A stretch of 64,000 nucleotides of DNA from Chrysophaeum taylorii. Lineage: Eukaryota; Sar; Pelagophyceae; Pelagomonadales; Pelagomonadaceae. Below the pieces are notes generated by a model. The model made no database searches, had not been told where the DNA came from, and saw only the letters and a program-made list of their open reading frames with translations. The DNA lies in NCBI GenBank assembly GCA_029834535.1, contig JAQMWT010000533.1, positions 186,001 through 250,000 on the forward strand, given 5' to 3'. Below are positions 1 through 10,479 of the stretch, piece by piece (within the stretch, counting starts at the first letter, position 1; every line of letters begins with the position of its first letter). The position numbers and the translations under genes were made by a program.

Positions 1-233
1 TTGGCATTGAGATTTTCGGTGGATCCGTATGCGAGGGACTTACGAGGAATGGGATGAGCGGGAATATGCCGTTTGCGCCGAACATCGAACTTGAGTTCGG
101 TGTCTAAGGCAGGGGAAGGCGGTGCGTCGTCATCCTGGTGCGCAGCAGGGTCACTTGGAGGTGCATCCTCATCATCACGAGTAACGAGAGTATCTTCGTA
201 GGACGAGAAGATATATAGTTTACGACATTTCGG
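1..233 (-). CDS. Partial open frame, acidic Pro-rich linker of pol (runs off the window)
   Basis: On the minus strand one frame is open from just after a TGA (234-236) to the window edge. It encodes SSYEDTLVTRDDEDAPPSD and then basic RRKRHIPAHPIPRKS. An acidic, proline-rich stretch between integrase and reverse transcriptase is typical of Copia Pol proteins. It is in a different frame from the integrase-like ORF, so a second frame change or decay is implied. Too short for a firm call. Confidence 0.3.
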
Positions 234-393: not shown

Positions 394-1356
394 TTAAATA
401 TCGGCAACGAGGAGCGAGAGGTGCTTGTACAGAGTACTGTACGTACCGGCAGGCAGAGCATTGCTGAGCATGTCACAGCAAAGGTCATGGCGTAGAGACA
501 AAAGGAAGGATTCCTGTTGTTTGGTGTGGTTGTTAGCACGAATCAACTCTGGTCGAGTGGGGTAGCGTAATTTCCCGTTGCGGGGGTCGAGTAAAATAAT
601 ATTGGCGTACCCTCGGACGGCGGGCAATGGAGCAAGCATGGAGTGGATTTTAGAGCCGAGTTTGCGGTCACTTCCACGAAGGTACCCTATATAGCGACTA
701 TGAGATAAGTGGTGATCTTCCAGAGCAAAACGAGAATCCTTGTAGTCGAAAGAGTTGGCGGTGGCCTTGTAGGTAAGGCAGCCAGGCATCACAAGAGAGC
801 ATATGGACAAGAGCTTTTGTATGGCGGTGCCATAGGTGGCAGCGGAGCCAACTTGGGGAAGGGCTTGGACTATCCACAAGTAACCCGTAAACGGCTCCAA
901 ATATATGGACCTGTCGCGGTCGCGGGGAAGGTCGGAAGCAGTGAACGTATACGTGCTTCCAAACGCGTCAATAGAAGCTTGATATTTGGTGGTGGCGTTC
1001 TCTATGGTGAGGTTGCCGTCAGAGTGGTGGCCACCAGTTAAGAAGTGGGAGTTGTATGATGTTGATGAGGTTGTAAGTAGTAACCTGTGTGACGGTTGGT
1101 TAGTTTCGAAAACGGTTATGTAATAAGACACAGGAGTGGGTGAGTTAGTGTGTAAGCTGGCAAACAAGTTACAGAGGATTGTAAAAACCTTGACATGTAT
1201 AGGGTAGGTTGCATTGGGTAGCGGCTCCATAGAGGAGCGTTTGAAGCACAGCGGATGACAAGTACACTCGGATTGAACAGAGTGAGTACGTTGCTCGTGA
1301 GCCTGTTGTGAGTGAAGGCGAAGCAGTAACATATTGAGGGATTCAAGGTCAGCCAT
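394..1356 (-). CDS. Integrase-like ORF of the Copia-like element (divergent)
   Basis: 320 aa from the listed Met; the frame is open from just after a TAA at 1399-1401, and it overlaps the methyltransferase ORF in the -1 frame. A Cys/His patch (CTCHPLC, residues ~31-37) lies where Copia proteins have an HHCC zinc finger. The middle has the strand pattern of a DDE core: SIDAFG, then IYLEPFTGYLWIVQAL, then a DYKDSRF segment, GSDRKLGSKIHSML (compare GVAERKNR...ARAML) and an A-N-I-L-L-D-P-R-N ... TRPEL segment (compare A-Y-L-I-N-R-x-P ... TPYEL). The catalytic Glu appears to be Asp and the second Asp is not certain. An alternative reading is methyltransferase motifs IX-X, because SNALP near the C-terminus resembles GNAVP. 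I favour integrase, with low confidence. Confidence 0.4.
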   Translation of the reverse strand: MADLESLNMLLLRLHSQQAHEQRTHSVQSECTCHPLCFKRSSMEPLPNATYPIHVKVFTILCNLFASLHTNSPTPVSYYITVFETNQPSHRLLLTTSSTSYNSHFLTGGHHSDGNLTIENATTKYQASIDAFGSTYTFTASDLPRDRDRSIYLEPFTGYLWIVQALPQVGSAATYGTAIQKLLSICSLVMPGCLTYKATANSFDYKDSRFALEDHHLSHSRYIGYLRGSDRKLGSKIHSMLAPLPAVRGYANIILLDPRNGKLRYPTRPELIRANNHTKQQESFLLSLRHDLCCDMLSNALPAGTYSTLYKHLSLLVADI

Positions 1357-2138
1357 AGTAAGCTGAGCAGGCCTGTGCGAGAGTAAGGTGCAAACGTTTT
1401 AGGAACGGGGATAAATGGAGGATCGGGGAACACCCGGATCCAGTCTTTGGATACGTGTTTAGGTAGCCAAAGGCGCTTGGGAATAGCTTGTAGATCATCC
1501 ACGATCTTTAGGAAGGGGCGTGGATGGAGGATAGGCCACGACAATATTTTAATTGGTCCAGTAGAATACCTGCGTGCGATGCATATCCATCTTTCTCTAG
1601 ATTGGTAGTCGCCACAGAGGTAGGTCGGGAACCTATCAACAACATCGACACAGTAATCAAGTGTTGCATGGATAAGGTTGGCCACTGTGATGTGGTCTTG
1701 ATGACAGTACTTATGCGGAGGCGTCATCTCAGCCAGTAGTACCAAGGGCTGGAGTAACTTGATGACAGACAACATGCTGTCGAAAAGAGAATCGTCCAGC
1801 AGGCTGTGTAAGTCTTCTGTCTTATGCTGTTTTAGTAAATTCCTGTTCGTGCAGGGAGGAGTGATCTCAATTATATCACAATAGAATGTGCGCCTTTCCT
1901 CTGGTGAGATTAGGTGAAGATGGTTAATAAAGGCGGGGAGAGATTCAAATAATAATACAGTAGGGAAACGGTGGCGTAACATACGAACAAGCGTATCATC
2001 AGACTCAACAGCAACTTTTACATTGATATTTAAGCCTAAGTCATTAGCGGCTTGAGACAGGAACGCCGGAGTTGACAAACCAGAACAAAGTAAGATGACA
2101 TAGGGTTTGCGGAGATTGGACTCTTGTGAGAGAAACAC
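1116..2138 (-). CDS. C5-cytosine DNA methyltransferase-like ORF inside the retroelement
   Basis: 340 aa. Several C5-MTase landmarks occur in the right order and spacing. Residues 14-25 (VILLCSGLSTPA) resemble the AdoMet-binding motif I, followed by an acidic VAVESDD (42-48) at the end of strand 2. ITPPCTN (92-98) holds the catalytic Pro-Pro-Cys of motif IV. LLAEM (134-138) sits at motif VI, where ENV is usual, keeping the Glu. QSRERWICIA (179-188) is a close match to motif VIII (QSRERVFIV). The usual target-recognition region and motifs IX-X are not clearly present before the frame closes, and the last ~80 residues look like out-of-frame reading. Position between protease and integrase suggests it is expressed as part of Pol, probably by frameshifting. 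Known precedent: cytosine methyltransferases have been reported in retrotransposons of some algae and dinoflagellates. Enzymatic activity is not shown. Confidence 0.6.
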   Translation of the reverse strand: MFLSQESNLRKPYVILLCSGLSTPAFLSQAANDLGLNINVKVAVESDDTLVRMLRHRFPTVLLFESLPAFINHLHLISPEERRTFYCDIIEITPPCTNRNLLKQHKTEDLHSLLDDSLFDSMLSVIKLLQPLVLLAEMTPPHKYCHQDHITVANLIHATLDYCVDVVDRFPTYLCGDYQSRERWICIARRYSTGPIKILSWPILHPRPFLKIVDDLQAIPKRLWLPKHVSKDWIRVFPDPPFIPVPKTFAPYSRTGLLSLLWLTLNPSICYCFAFTHNRLTSNVLTLFNPSVLVIRCASNAPLWSRYPMQPTLYMSRFLQSSVTCLPAYTLTHPLLCLIT

Positions 2139-2153
2139 TGGGCGTGAAAGTAG

Positions 2154-2945
2154 TCAAGTTAATGGCTGCGTATTTTGCTGAACAAACTTGTTCTGTTTCC
2201 GAAGATTGAGAACCAAAGGGCGAATCCACGGGCGATCTGGTAAAACTCTTTGGAGTAGGTAGTTGTAGTATGCCAGTAGATCCCTGTTTTCATGGTATCG
2301 CTTGAGGGGAAATGCGAGGGAACGAAGTTCGAGTTGCTTGTCGCGAGCGATGTTGTAGGTGAGACAAGGGAGGGCAGGTAGATTAGCTGCTATGTAGTGT
2401 ATGGGAATACGTACATCTTTGTCTATGCGGCTCGTGACAGCGCTGAGCTTTGGCTCAGCTCGATCATTGAACACAGTGGTCAGGTTCGTCTGGTTCCACT
2501 CGAGCATGCTCAGGATAGCGAGATGTCGGTCATGCACTGGCGGAAGACATAAAGCGAAGTCGATCTTAAGATAGCCAACTTGTGGATGATCTGGTAGGGG
2601 AACAACAATGTTACGTGTTAACATCACGTGTGAGGCACGTTGTTGTCCTGTGGCTGTTTGAATAACAATCGGCGCGTATTTGGAGTCCAGTGGAATTATA
2701 TGATTGGGTATTGCAAAATCGTAAGTGGACATCAATGAGATGGTAGCACAACAAGAGTCAAAATATAGAAAAGAACAATGTGGAGGGACACTGTTTACCT
2801 TCATGTAGTCGGTGAGGAAGGCGTCTTCCGAATGTGGGCAAGTAGTGGAGAGGCTGCCTGTGAAGAAGTTCTCCAGCAATAACAGATTCGATGGAATAAT
2901 AATCGGTTGAACAGGTGGTGATGGTTCGTCAGCCTCATCAGCCAT
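2154..2945 (-). CDS. Retropepsin-like aspartic protease ORF
   Basis: 263 aa, starting 18 nt after the Gag-like stop. Residues 62-72 read FDSCCATISLM, which matches the Copia protease active-site pattern (hydrophobic-DSGAT-hydrophobic), except that Gly of DSG is replaced by Cys. About 30 residues later IQTATGQQ corresponds to the strand before the flap in Copia proteases. The rest (LEWNQTNLTTVF, then a basic C-terminus) is not recognised. The family cleaves the retroelement polyprotein and works as a homodimer. The Gly-to-Cys change in the catalytic triplet is unusual, so activity is uncertain. The next ORF begins 15 nt downstream in another frame. Confidence 0.6.
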   Translation of the reverse strand: MADEADEPSPPVQPIIIPSNLLLLENFFTGSLSTTCPHSEDAFLTDYMKVNSVPPHCSFLYFDSCCATISLMSTYDFAIPNHIIPLDSKYAPIVIQTATGQQRASHVMLTRNIVVPLPDHPQVGYLKIDFALCLPPVHDRHLAILSMLEWNQTNLTTVFNDRAEPKLSAVTSRIDKDVRIPIHYIAANLPALPCLTYNIARDKQLELRSLAFPLKRYHENRDLLAYYNYLLQRVLPDRPWIRPLVLNLRKQNKFVQQNTQPLT

Positions 2946-2963
2946 GCCGTGCTTTTCATCGAA

Positions 2964-5021
2964 TTACGATAGCGAAGTATGATCGGCATCCCTTTTGGTT
3001 TCGGCTTGTGATGGTAGGTTGAGGGCAGATTGGACCTGTGAAGATAGCGAGGACAATAACGCTGGTGGTAAAGCCGAGATGGCGGAAGCAGTAAAGAGGT
3101 TAGGCACAATATTGGAAGGATTACCCTGTGTGTTTGTAGTAGGAGGAGTTGCCTTTGGGGTGGGAGCAGTAACAACAGTATGATGTTGTGGCTCCACGTA
3201 GTTTAACGACTTTTCGGTCGAGGATAGATGAACGTCTACATCATAAATGATGTCTTCTGCAAACATGAGTTGTTCGTTTAGACGAAGTAAATTACTGTTG
3301 TCCTCAGTAGATGTCGTTGACAGAATGTCAGCTGATTGTAATAGAGTCTCAAATAACTTGTTGATATTCTGTTGTAGCTGAGCCGTGGTATCATTATCTG
3401 TCACATGCTTCGTAAGTTCACTACACTGTTCTCGCAGGGTGTTTAAGGTGTGGTTTGTTCGATCTAATAATTTCATGTTAGACCGAGAGGACCTGTCAAA
3501 AGTGCGGGGGTAAATTGGACGGTCATGGGACTGTCCAGCAGTTTTCTTGGTGACGTAAGAATCACCAGAACGATAATACGATAAATCGCTGCGAGAGAAA
3601 GGCTGGCGAGCATCATTAGAGTTACGCAAGCGTCTAGCATTAAACGTGGAAGATGTACCAGGTTGAGACGAAGTGATGAAGGCGAGTGTGTTAGCAGTTT
3701 GAGTCAGACTTTTGTCTGCTAAATCCAGAGTGTTTGTAAGTAGTAACTTTGGCTTTGGTTGAGATGATAAACCTTCGACATAGGGTTGCCAAGAAACGGG
3801 GCGTTCTAAGCGTCTTTTGTTCGACCCATTTGATACTACATTGTATAAGTCTAATGCGTATTCTAAAATGTAGCTAGGGTTGGTAGGGTGACACAATCGT
3901 TCAGCTTCTGGCACAGGCCGAGATGAAGATCGGGTTTCATACATATAACACCAATCTACCCAACCACGATCGTAACGATTGTTGCTGGTATTATCGGCAT
4001 AATGCCGATGTATCTCTTCATAGATTTTTCTACAAAGAGTACCAAAGTCGAATTGAAGGTCAGTCTCTTCCTGGTTAAGTTGGTAAGAGATTTGCCTAAA
4101 TGCTAGGACAGCTTCGATAAATACATGGACATACCAGTTAGGATTATAAACAACAGAGTTAAATTGCTGTTTCAAATAGGACACATCAGTAGTCGTAACA
4201 GACTCGTAGTGACTAAAGGCGATGAGCATAATGGCTCGAGCCTTGTTGGGTAAATAACTTTTGTTATATACCTCATTGATGGCGGGCCAGGCCGCAAGTG
4301 CTGGTTTTCCAACACTTTCAAGATTGAAGTAAGTATGCAAGAATGTAGCATACGTGTTCTGATAAGTGTGCCAGTCAGCAGCAGTTAACGAAAACATAGT
4401 AACAAGGGCACGAACACGGGTGTCGAAAGCTAATGCCTTCGGGTGCGCGCGATTTAAGATTCGTTCCTCTTCTAAGAAACGGGCATTGATTTCAGGACGT
4501 AATGCCTTGACTTCATAGTCGTAACAGACAGTAGCTAGCTGAGCTACTTCTGCATCAGGTAAGTTGGGGAAAGCTTCGTTGGTGAAATGCCATTCCTGAT
4601 ACTCAGGGGGCAATTCATAAACAGCTAAACGGAGATCAGCAGCCCTATCGGTCTTCCATTCCAGGAAAACGCGATCGAGAATTTGATTCCGGAGGATCTC
4701 GTAGTCCTTGCATGACCGAGTATATGCTTCGTACGAGTCGTACTCGAGGAAGGCATCGGCATGACTGGACCGTAACAATTGCTTAATGTGCTTGATTTGC
4801 AAGGATACCTTGCGAGTCTGAAGCTGAAATCGATTTCCATCGTTAAGAAACTCAACTACAGGAGCTTCGAGCTTCAATATATCCGCACCTGTGATCGCCT
4901 TGGGCGCGGCTCGTGCTGCGTGTTCTGCCATAGCAGTTGACGGGGAACCTGTGGGTTCAGTCACGCAGTTGACACTGTCTAGACATTCTAAGGGGGTCTG
5001 TCTATCGGTGTCTATGTACAC
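2964..5021 (-). CDS. Gag-like protein of the Copia-like element
   Basis: 685-aa ORF that opens the element. It has no recognisable catalytic motif. The first ~400 residues are rich in charged and aromatic residues and probably helical, with a KHIKQLLR-type segment near residue 77. The last third is Ser/Thr/Asn/Gln-rich and ends in a low-complexity, proline-containing tail. A zinc knuckle (CX2CX4HX4C) is not apparent, which is unusual but not unknown for a capsid protein. The call as Gag rests mainly on position: it is the first and longest ORF, immediately followed by a protease-like ORF on the same strand. The Met at 5021 is the first in the frame; a second Met about 30 residues later (MAEHAARAAPK) is also a credible start. 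It could instead be an unrelated host-derived ORF. Confidence 0.5.
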   Translation of the reverse strand: MYIDTDRQTPLECLDSVNCVTEPTGSPSTAMAEHAARAAPKAITGADILKLEAPVVEFLNDGNRFQLQTRKVSLQIKHIKQLLRSSHADAFLEYDSYEAYTRSCKDYEILRNQILDRVFLEWKTDRAADLRLAVYELPPEYQEWHFTNEAFPNLPDAEVAQLATVCYDYEVKALRPEINARFLEEERILNRAHPKALAFDTRVRALVTMFSLTAADWHTYQNTYATFLHTYFNLESVGKPALAAWPAINEVYNKSYLPNKARAIMLIAFSHYESVTTTDVSYLKQQFNSVVYNPNWYVHVFIEAVLAFRQISYQLNQEETDLQFDFGTLCRKIYEEIHRHYADNTSNNRYDRGWVDWCYMYETRSSSRPVPEAERLCHPTNPSYILEYALDLYNVVSNGSNKRRLERPVSWQPYVEGLSSQPKPKLLLTNTLDLADKSLTQTANTLAFITSSQPGTSSTFNARRLRNSNDARQPFSRSDLSYYRSGDSYVTKKTAGQSHDRPIYPRTFDRSSRSNMKLLDRTNHTLNTLREQCSELTKHVTDNDTTAQLQQNINKLFETLLQSADILSTTSTEDNSNLLRLNEQLMFAEDIIYDVDVHLSSTEKSLNYVEPQHHTVVTAPTPKATPPTTNTQGNPSNIVPNLFTASAISALPPALLSSLSSQVQSALNLPSQAETKRDADHTSLS

Positions 5022-6430
5022 TCATCGTTTTCGATGGAAAGGTGTCTATTTGACGACTGTGCAAGCTGTGAGTCCAGAGTAGTGTCGCTAAGCGTAGTCA
5101 CTCAGGCAGCTGGTTAGTTTTGGTGCTCTCAAGGAGCTTGTTAAGTGCATTGCCATGGAATGTACGAGTGGATGTACCCAAAATATTCCATAACATGTGT
5201 GCAAGAGTACAGGTTAGCCAATTACAAACACATCAACATTGACATGACAATACGATACTATGAACAGGTGCACACAAGGTTACACGATCACGTGTGCAAA
5301 ATGTGTTATATACAGCGCAATGGTAATGGTGTTGTATTCACAAGCGTGTTTACGTGGCGAGGCTGAGCCGGCGCGGTAACAGCCCAATACCCATAGGTTA
5401 CGTGCACGTTTTAACACACGGTTTCTCAGGGACCCGCCTGGGCCCATAACCCGCAGAGCATTTAGCAAGCAGTGGTAAGTCACCTGGGAAACCATCCCGT
5501 CTCATCATGAACGTCTGGAAGTATTTAATTCGGGAAATGAAAAGGTATGTTCCCTGTATCCTCAGAACACGACAGGCGGCATCTAGAACTACACGAGAAA
5601 AGGTAAAGTGTATAGTGCTACATACCTCGGGACGCGCTAGACCATGATGATGAGCGTAAGCACAAATCAGAGGACTATTTGATTGTGTAGAAAAGAAGAA
5701 GAAGGGCAAGGACGAGATCACGTTCTCAACGGACGGATAAGGGTAAGAGGCAGCAGATTTCTCTGCATGAACAGATCAACCATGCATCTTAGGGATTCTG
5801 GCGCATCCTGACCTAAATGATGACGAGCAGTTAATGATGGAACGTCCATTAGCTTATATATATAGGTTTCTTTGACGACGTCATTATGATGACCGTGAAT
5901 ACTCCGGAGGTGGTTCTGCGCTTTAAACATACCAATACTGTACCAGTCAGGTTGTCGCTTTATCGACTGTCACACCAACACAGGAAAAGATCGAGTGCCT
6001 ACGCCTCCTATTTGGCGAGTGGTTTCGTGATGGTGTTATCTGCCCTGCCATTTCTCCGTGTGGTTTCCTATCTTGATCCTTAAAAAGAACGGCGCTGAGA
6101 GTGGAAATTCGAATGCCCCCGAGCTGCTGTGGGCCTTCGGGGTCTCAATGATATGCGTCTTGATGACACCTAGCCGAGGGTACATCAGGAAGATGCACTG
6201 GCATTCCTACGTGGTAATTTGATTTTGACGATAATAGACATACGTTGGGCTATTGCAGCTTGCGGCTATCCCTGTCCCACATAATGTGGTCATTTTTGCC
6301 TGTCCTCTGGGCTAGTACAGCTATGTGCGATTGCCTCCATGCGTCAAACCAGCTGCTGGGATGATGATTTGCAAACAGTTAAGCCCGGATATGTCAGAAT
6401 GGCTTTATATTGAATCTTTGGATAAGCTGA
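5022..6430. other. AT-rich interval without a supportable gene
   Basis: No ORF here has a recognisable product; the longest are 107 aa or less and lack protein-like composition. It should contain the 5' LTR and leader of the Copia-like element, but I could not fix LTR ends (TG...CA) without the second copy. Confidence 0.5.
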
Positions 6431-6690
6431 ATGCTTCCTGGGCCGGTTGGCAGCCGGAACGTTCGCAGTGGGACGGGGTATGGCCGGGGGGCGAAGTTGA
6501 AGGTTATCGACGAGTTGGTTGTCAGTCACATCGCGGTCTCCTCGTCGCATGGCGACAAGCGTGATGGTCACTCTCCGCCGACCGACCTTTCGGCGCTCCT
6601 CGTCTACAGGCCCGTGATTCCGGACTGGCTCGTGTCGGCCCGGCCTAGCTCCCGTGCTTGGGAGAGGTCTGAAGTTAGTTAGTTAGAAGG
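6431..6690 (+). repeat. Dispersed repeat, copy 1 (inverted relative to 46.7-46.93 kb)
   Basis: This segment matches the reverse complement of about 46,680-46,940. Shared landmarks, in order, are GGCCGGTTGGCAGCCGG / GTTCGCAGTGGGACGGGGTATGG, then a block around GACGAGTTGGTTGTCAGTCACATC, then CGGGCCTGT-like sequence near the end. Similarity is partial with several indels. It is followed by a short GTTAGTTAGTTAG tract, also present beside the other copy. No coding capacity was recognised. Confidence 0.7.
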
Positions 6691-9972: not shown

Positions 9973-10479
9973 CTACGGGCGCCTCATTGCAGGATTGAGA
10001 ATGAGACTGGAGGTGGGGAGCCAGACTCGCTGGGCGGCCGTGTTTCGCTGGGGATCGGGCTCGTCCTTGAATACCTCGCCGATCATGCCAGAGGTGGCGA
10101 TCCCCCGCTCTGGACGTGTACCGCTTCGGCCGATTGCCGGCTGGTCTGAGCGCTTTGGTGGTCCCTCTTTTATACCGAACGCGGAGGCATAGGTTGTCGA
10201 GAAACGGTCTGCAGGGACGTCATTCCTCGCGTTGAAGGCGGCCGGGTCGCGGTGGCTGACGAGAGCCTTGGCTAACTCACAGGTTTCCCTCTGCGTCATC
10301 GATAAGTCGCCCACCTGGCGTCGTGCACGCGTGAGCTCTCGGTTGGCGCTGTCAACAAAAGCGTTTGAGTGCGTCGTGTCGAAGCACCGAGTGCCATAGT
10401 CCGCAATGACACCACGCAGCGGCGGGGCGCGCTCCTCGAACCAGTTGTCGTTGAGGGTGACGGGCTTGTAGACGTTCAT
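9973..10479 (-). CDS. Hypothetical 168-aa protein
   Basis: The open frame extends upstream to a Met at 10527, but the upstream DNA is AT-rich and encodes an odd WIWIFFITA stretch. The Met at 10479 (MNVYKPVTLNDNWFEERAPP) starts exactly where GC-rich, codon-biased sequence begins, so I prefer it. The product is soluble-looking, rich in Arg, Asp, Ala and Pro, with a short Tyr/Trp-containing N-terminal motif (YKPVTLNDNWFEER) reminiscent of cilium/flagellum microtubule-associated proteins such as the C9orf135/CFAP95 type. That resemblance is weak. No membrane segment or catalytic motif was seen. It is separated from the next minus-strand gene by a CTCACCT/CAACTCAA low-complexity tract (10,556-10,600). 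Confidence 0.45.
   Translation of the reverse strand: MNVYKPVTLNDNWFEERAPPLRGVIADYGTRCFDTTHSNAFVDSANRELTRARRQVGDLSMTQRETCELAKALVSHRDPAAFNARNDVPADRFSTTYASAFGIKEGPPKRSDQPAIGRSGTRPERGIATSGMIGEVFKDEPDPQRNTAAQRVWLPTSSLILNPAMRRP

Follow-up and report, generated by a model that had tools for sequence, protein, structure and literature searches.

A diverged cytosine methyltransferase-like domain between protease and integrase in a Copia retrotransposon family of Chrysophaeum taylorii

DNA methyltransferases (DNMTs) are already known from retrotransposons of the long interspersed nuclear element (LINE), DIRS and Gypsy types, and one published sentence also names long terminal repeat (LTR) Copia elements. 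KnitGypsy-Dnmt3 of Klebsormidium nitens is an LTR retrotransposon that carries a DNMT in its Pol polyprotein under purifying selection (de Mendoza et al. 2018, PMC5890265). The available text of that paper also describes SymbioDIRS-Dnmt3 and SymbioLINE-Dnmt of Symbiodinium, Symbiodinium Copia elements without a DNMT, and DIRS elements with a Dam-like N6-adenine methyltransferase. A single sentence of Sarre et al. 2025 (PMC12344493) names Copia LTR and DIRS elements that contain DNMT3 members. The window analyzed here is a stretch of 64,000 nucleotides from the pelagophyte Chrysophaeum taylorii (contig JAQMWT010000533.1, here C533:186001–250000, of the 70.8-Mb, 697-contig assembly GCA_029834535.1). 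Up to base 5767 it consists of the 5′ portion of an LTR retrotransposon of the Copia type on the minus strand, the remainder of which lies to the left on C533, and a domain resembling C5-cytosine methyltransferases (C5-MTases) stands between its protease and integrase parts. Coordinates are window positions unless a contig is named.

The window element is like KnitGypsy-Dnmt3 in having a DNMT inside Pol of an LTR retrotransposon and in the purifying selection on that DNMT. KnitGypsy-Dnmt3 is, however, a Gypsy element with a recognizable Dnmt3 in a charophyte host, whereas the window element is of the Copia type and its domain lies below Pfam detection. SymbioDIRS-Dnmt3 and SymbioLINE-Dnmt are comparable in their hundreds of DNMT-bearing copies within a single microalgal genome, in families standing side by side and in Ka/Ks < 0.2, but belong to the DIRS and LINE classes. 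The Dam-like DIRS elements share a DNA methyltransferase encoded by a retrotransposon; the enzyme family is structurally unrelated and the element class is another. Sarre et al. 2025 name Copia LTR elements in which a DNMT is embedded, and the main text available from that paper is without the words Gypsy and Aureococcus. Literature searches, with subscription papers mostly outside reach, turned up no publication that describes a stramenopile Copia or Gypsy element bearing a DNMT. As far as the literature was searched, a Copia family whose DNMT escapes Pfam and follows a conserved UGA is new, as is the finding that the same genome also harbors a related second Copia family and a DNMT-bearing Gypsy family.

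The initial annotation had placed DNMT motifs in order in one 340-amino acid (aa) open reading frame (ORF). The motif part of this claim was borne out: minus-strand open frame 1116–2153 (345 aa) holds all four motifs in order. Residues after about 261 of the 345 are out of frame owing to a frameshift near 1371. The first four motifs below were read in open frame 1116–2153, and the assignment of the last two is putative.

2067–2099, minus strand: motif I, VILLCSGLSTP
1851–1862, minus strand: TPPC, with the catalytic Pro-Cys of motif IV
1725–1733, minus strand: AEM, with Glu at the ENV position of motif VI
1590–1604, minus strand: QSRER, motif VIII
1342–1365, minus strand: motif IX-like QLTMADLE
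1159–1188, minus strand: motif X-like VFTILCNLFA

QLTMADLE and VFTIL-N stand in the expected order, and VFTIL-N aligns with the second Copia family described below and unreliably with known enzymes.

A Pfam search of the window ORF gave no PF00145 match and nothing else relevant, and a single-sequence PDB search likewise gave nothing relevant. A protein search with the 345-aa ORF returned two relatives from other sources, P0003 (an MMETSP protein) and P0004, which are 37–39% identical to the window sequence and in which the Pro-Cys, both Glu, Asp, Gln, Arg and Arg positions are invariant. Against the PF00145 cut-off of 22 bits, P0004 lies over (23.0) and P0003 under (20.2). No third relative was found among 8000 candidates scored with the alignment of both, and residues 1–280 of the long-frame copy L032 had no match at E ≤ 1 in a protein search. 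Profile-profile significance was judged by the real score against the maximum of 60 column shuffles. The window-family profile scored 43.1 with known C5-MTases (shuffle maximum 20.1), and CSGLS falls in the motif I register of the profile alignment. The hidden Markov model check proposed earlier gave support by way of a relative and of profiles, and not by a direct match of the window copy. The structure check, made on low-confidence three-sequence models, was clearest for P0003, for which the first 19 fold-ranking rows are all C5-MTases; the fold matches of the window model are mixed with dehydrogenases. Scans resting on two short peptide patterns each found no relatives of the domain in viral contigs, where the second Copia family was also looked for, or in prokaryote genome contigs. 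On the profile and Pfam evidence, the sequence that separates protease from integrase encodes a strongly diverged C5-MTase domain.

Copy L032 encodes a single 1691-aa ORF with the DNMT-like part, rve, an SH3-like domain and RVT_2 in that order, and the window family therefore has a Copia-type pol with an extra domain ahead of the integrase. RVT_2 of L032 (residues 1431–1651) scores 144 bits against a cut-off of 31.6, while its rve (784–866, E 0.0076) and SH3-like domain (E 0.00056) are below their cut-offs; rve in copy L034 has an E value of 0.00013. A degenerate protease/DNMT junction pattern matched the genome 156 times and its backward control pattern 0 times, and the distance from DNMT to reverse transcriptase (RT) is between 4.10 and 4.17 kb in 26 of 47 cases. 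The genome holds well over 100 copies of the window family. The proposal of the initial annotation, a Copia-like element with a C5-MTase-like domain between protease and integrase, is supported by relatives, by profiles and by further copies in the genome that keep this order; DNMT similarity was not missing, and no copies came to light that place the ORF outside the element.

Thirty-six DNMT copies were examined, picked largely by similarity and so biased to intact ones. Thirty of these retain every one of twelve key residues, namely CSG, E, D, PPC, E, Q, R and R. CSG is intact in 34 copies (changed in L030 and L033), the motif IV Cys is present in 35 (L014 has a deletion over PPC) and QxRxR in 35 (L025 is changed at the last Arg). 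Ser replaces the first Pro of PPC in L006 and L009. The Glu at the ENV position is found in all 36, the tripeptide around it being AEM and not a complete ENV. Sites with the minor base in at least three copies fall on codon positions 1, 2 and 3 in the numbers 19, 5 and 65. Across 630 pairs, which share copies and are hence non-independent, the median ratio of nonsynonymous to synonymous divergence (dN/dS) goes from 0.35 at dS < 0.05 (77 pairs) to 0.09 at dS ≥ 0.4 (130 pairs). The DNMT frame is under purifying selection as a protein.

The genome holds at least three DNMT-carrying element types: two Copia families with homologous DNMTs in the same place, and one Gypsy family. A PF00145 search of the genome gave 124 places, and loci were read for 15 of these, plus L055, L057, L058 and L059 from four others. 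The 15 comprise two host genes (L039 and L040) and 13 loci (L041–L053) that are apparently one repeated family. Motif I of the second Copia family was found in 12 of the 13; L052 is unmatched, yet ends in the same stretch as L050. Members of this family are L057 (C96:61500–70500), L054, L041–L051 and L053. L057 has a single 1951-aa ORF with PF00145 (32.1 bits), rve (E 0.0061) and RVT_2 (133 bits), and the protease-type motif DGGA stands ahead of PF00145, so that the DNMT sits between protease and integrase. LPC is retained in the second-family DNMT, most of the copies read also have ENV, and I-S-K-x-R stands where QxRxR is expected. Plain BLASTP finds no homology between the DNMTs of the two Copia families, whereas their profiles score 65.7 against a shuffle maximum of 20.7. 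BLASTP does show homology of the two families over the stretch that runs from the linker into the integrase (E 6e-19) and over RT (E 2e-44); gag is not homologous by BLASTP (E 0.15). In L057 the overlapping gag and pol are not in the same frame, a layout suggestive of programmed frameshifting and not of readthrough at a UGA.

The Gypsy-type loci L055, L058 and L059 carry FSGAGG or FAGAGG and SPPC in a DNMT-like domain ahead of RVT_1. L058 scores 22.2 bits with PF00145, just at the cut-off, and its overlapping next ORF contains RVT_1 (51.6 bits). L055 holds DNMT and RT parts within one 1286-aa frame by reading of the translation, and L059 is too short to show RT. The domain forms two subfamilies about 37% identical, and a clear ENV motif was not seen in these three loci. 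Its profile scores 53.6 with C5-MTases (shuffle maximum 21.3). No link was found between the Gypsy and Copia DNMT profiles, the real score being reached by 22 of 60 and 38 of 60 shuffles. The Gypsy DNMT is therefore seemingly a separate capture, and divergence could hide a common origin.

Chance motif resemblance in an unrelated polyprotein domain would fit a window ORF with neither a Pfam match nor a relevant single-sequence PDB match. None of the 60 shuffles reached the profile score, however; P0004 exceeds the PF00145 gathering cut-off, C5-MTases lead the P0003 fold ranking, and in the homologous second family PF00145 scores 32.1 bits within an ORF that also contains RVT_2. Chance is very improbable, with both profile and Pfam results speaking strongly against it. 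A host gene or other mobile element inserted beside the Copia element is less probable still and hardly worth considering: the window copy, broken and cut by the window edge, would allow it if taken alone, but it is refuted by copies with the same order, namely within the one frame of L032, at the 156 junctions and in the narrow range of DNMT–RT spacing shared by 26 of 47 cases. More weight belongs to a domain of C5-MTase descent that has lost methyltransferase function and is kept as a nucleic-acid-binding, S-adenosylmethionine (AdoMet)-binding or structural part of the polyprotein. Strong divergence to below Pfam detection, AEM instead of ENV, a CpG-decay signal that was not seen (below) and the missing clear ENV in the Gypsy family all agree with such a loss. 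A purely structural role, on the other hand, would not predict twelve complete key positions in 30 of 36 copies, nor invariant Cys, both Glu, Gln, Arg and Arg at 37–39% identity, and the second Copia family keeps LPC and mostly ENV. Loss of function is accordingly rated unlikely, and Copia anatomy, DNMT homology and retained methyltransferase function, taken jointly, are quite likely to hold.

The protease ORF closes with UGA directly ahead of the DNMT frame, and both are in the same frame. UGA is kept in 152 of the 156 matched junctions although the neighboring codons vary (CUA, AUA, AUG and others after it). CUA often follows, and UGA-CUA is a known leaky stop context in the accessible text of PMC4132726. 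Readthrough of the UGA is therefore suggested and is the likely source of a longer protein. The second unit could instead arise by reinitiation, from an internal start codon or from an mRNA of its own. Such routes would be served by the AUG that stands in frame right behind UGA in about one-fifth of the listed junctions, and would agree with an RNA fold behind the UGA of the window copy that is not unusual, no stimulating structure being seen there. Also counted for them is the position of the first Met, which in most of 15 aligned copies falls inside motif I itself; in these 15 the sole Met ahead of motif I is the first residue of L016. The remaining listed junctions read UGA-CUA, UGA-AUA or similar without AUG, and conservation of UGA amid changing codons is better matched by readthrough, which leaves the other routes rather doubtful.

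Under readthrough, gag and protease would be translated first, and ribosomes passing the conserved UGA would make a longer protein with DNMT, integrase and RT. The DNMT may then be packed in the particle at low amount beside RT and integrase, as a pol subunit, where it would most likely bind AdoMet and methylate cytosines in the cDNA (or RNA) of the element itself, either ahead of integration or during it. The chances that cDNA is the target are about even. A CpG-decay test weighs against self-methylation at CpG: in a small sample covering one 0.8-kb stretch and the CpG context only, singleton transitions at CpG were not raised (6/1965 vs 44/10276). The CpG observed/expected ratio, 0.91–0.94 in three window-family sequences vs 1.27 in window positions 10001–64000, was not counted, as base composition differs. 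Other retrotransposon DNMTs methylate CG in yeast and the SymbioLINE domain did not, according to the available text of de Mendoza et al. 2018 (PMC5890265).

The window element is about 12.2 kb long, full-length but broken, with the following parts.

5768–5772, no strand: target-site duplication GTTCA, with its second copy directly past the 3′ LTR (flanks read directly)
5453–5767, minus strand: 5′ LTR, starting TGCAGAG at 5767 (BLAST within C533 and pairwise alignment with the 3′ LTR)
5436–5452, minus strand: candidate primer-binding site GGGTTATGGGCCCAGGC, immediately following the 5′ LTR
2967–4931, minus strand: gag-like ORF from the first in-frame ATG
2157–2963, minus strand: protease-like region with FDSCCA (ORF and motif)
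2154–2156, minus strand: in-frame UGA, then CUA, between protease and DNMT (junction pattern)
1344–2153, minus strand: DNMT-like domain, its frame intact as far as about 1371 (motifs, profiles and selection)
397–1398, minus strand: pol-frame continuation past the frameshift, with motif IX-like and X-like stretches, then a linker towards integrase
1–233, minus strand: linker leading to integrase, which follows with RT and RNase H further left, outside the window
C533 179615–179934, minus strand, outside the window: 3′ LTR (same evidence as for the 5′ LTR)

The LTRs are 96.6% identical over 320 columns, with one 3-base and one 2-base gap, and GAGGGGG stands ahead of the 3′ LTR. The primer-binding-site candidate resembles the complement of the anticodon arm of initiator tRNA(Met), presumably for half-tRNA priming as in Drosophila copia. 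A stop at 2964–2966 parts gag from the protease ORF in the window copy, and the same junction is open in copy L035. The protease-like region has no retropepsin Pfam match in the window. Its ORF agrees with the protease initially annotated, but the DSCC type does not: over the 36 copies the motif is DSCA in 29, DSRA in one and DSCC in the window copy only, with the pattern not found in five. The Gly of the aspartic protease motif D-[ST]-G is thus replaced in the window family, and the second Copia family has DGGA. The order of protease, DNMT and integrase on one strand was also annotated correctly, except that the neighboring ORF 397–1398 is not the integrase core; the rve start (residue 784 of L032) maps about 200 bases left of the first base of the window. 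The RT ORF of the window element is C533 182182–183999.

Between RNase H and the 3′ LTR lie two ORFs of 240 and 345 aa (L056:3095–4890, equal to C533 180095–181890, minus strand). They have no Pfam family over the cut-off, and one has weak coiled-coil-type matches. Next to the element, about 250 bases (6440–6686) match stretches inside L033 and L035 at 93–95% and represent another repeat.

The two host genes are DNMT2-like (L039, C634:8824–9801) and DNMT5-like (L040, C621:16962–17498, inside a 2086-aa open frame), with class names assigned by motif. A light-harvesting-type protein (best PDB match VCPI-6, E 3.7e-18) adjoins the DNMT2-like gene on C634. Taken by themselves, this protein and the DNMT5-like gene would point to a photosynthetic alga whose plastid is of the red line, perhaps a pelagophyte. 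Partial PF00145 matches at C260:30335–31159 (profile 7–48 and 260–321, 436-aa frame) and C57:374397–374621 (profile 244–321, 408-aa frame) are possibly further DNMT genes.

Few lineages are known to have transposons that bear the type of enzyme by which transposons are usually silenced, and such elements are puzzling. Tentatively, and with more doubt than confidence, a DNMT may have been taken up once by a Copia lineage before the split of both families and their marine microeukaryote relatives, becoming a fixed pol subunit made only via UGA readthrough or frameshifting, with cDNA methylated in the particle, and the Gypsy lineage would have acquired its own independently. If so, DNMT carriage would be a stable LTR-element trait hidden from standard domain searches. 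Because such domains can drop below Pfam detection, the number of elements that carry a DNMT may have been underestimated. A defined place for the DNMT, a conserved and probably leaky stop, well over 100 copies and two further element types make it testable whether the element marks its own cDNA, shields it or sways the host methylome.
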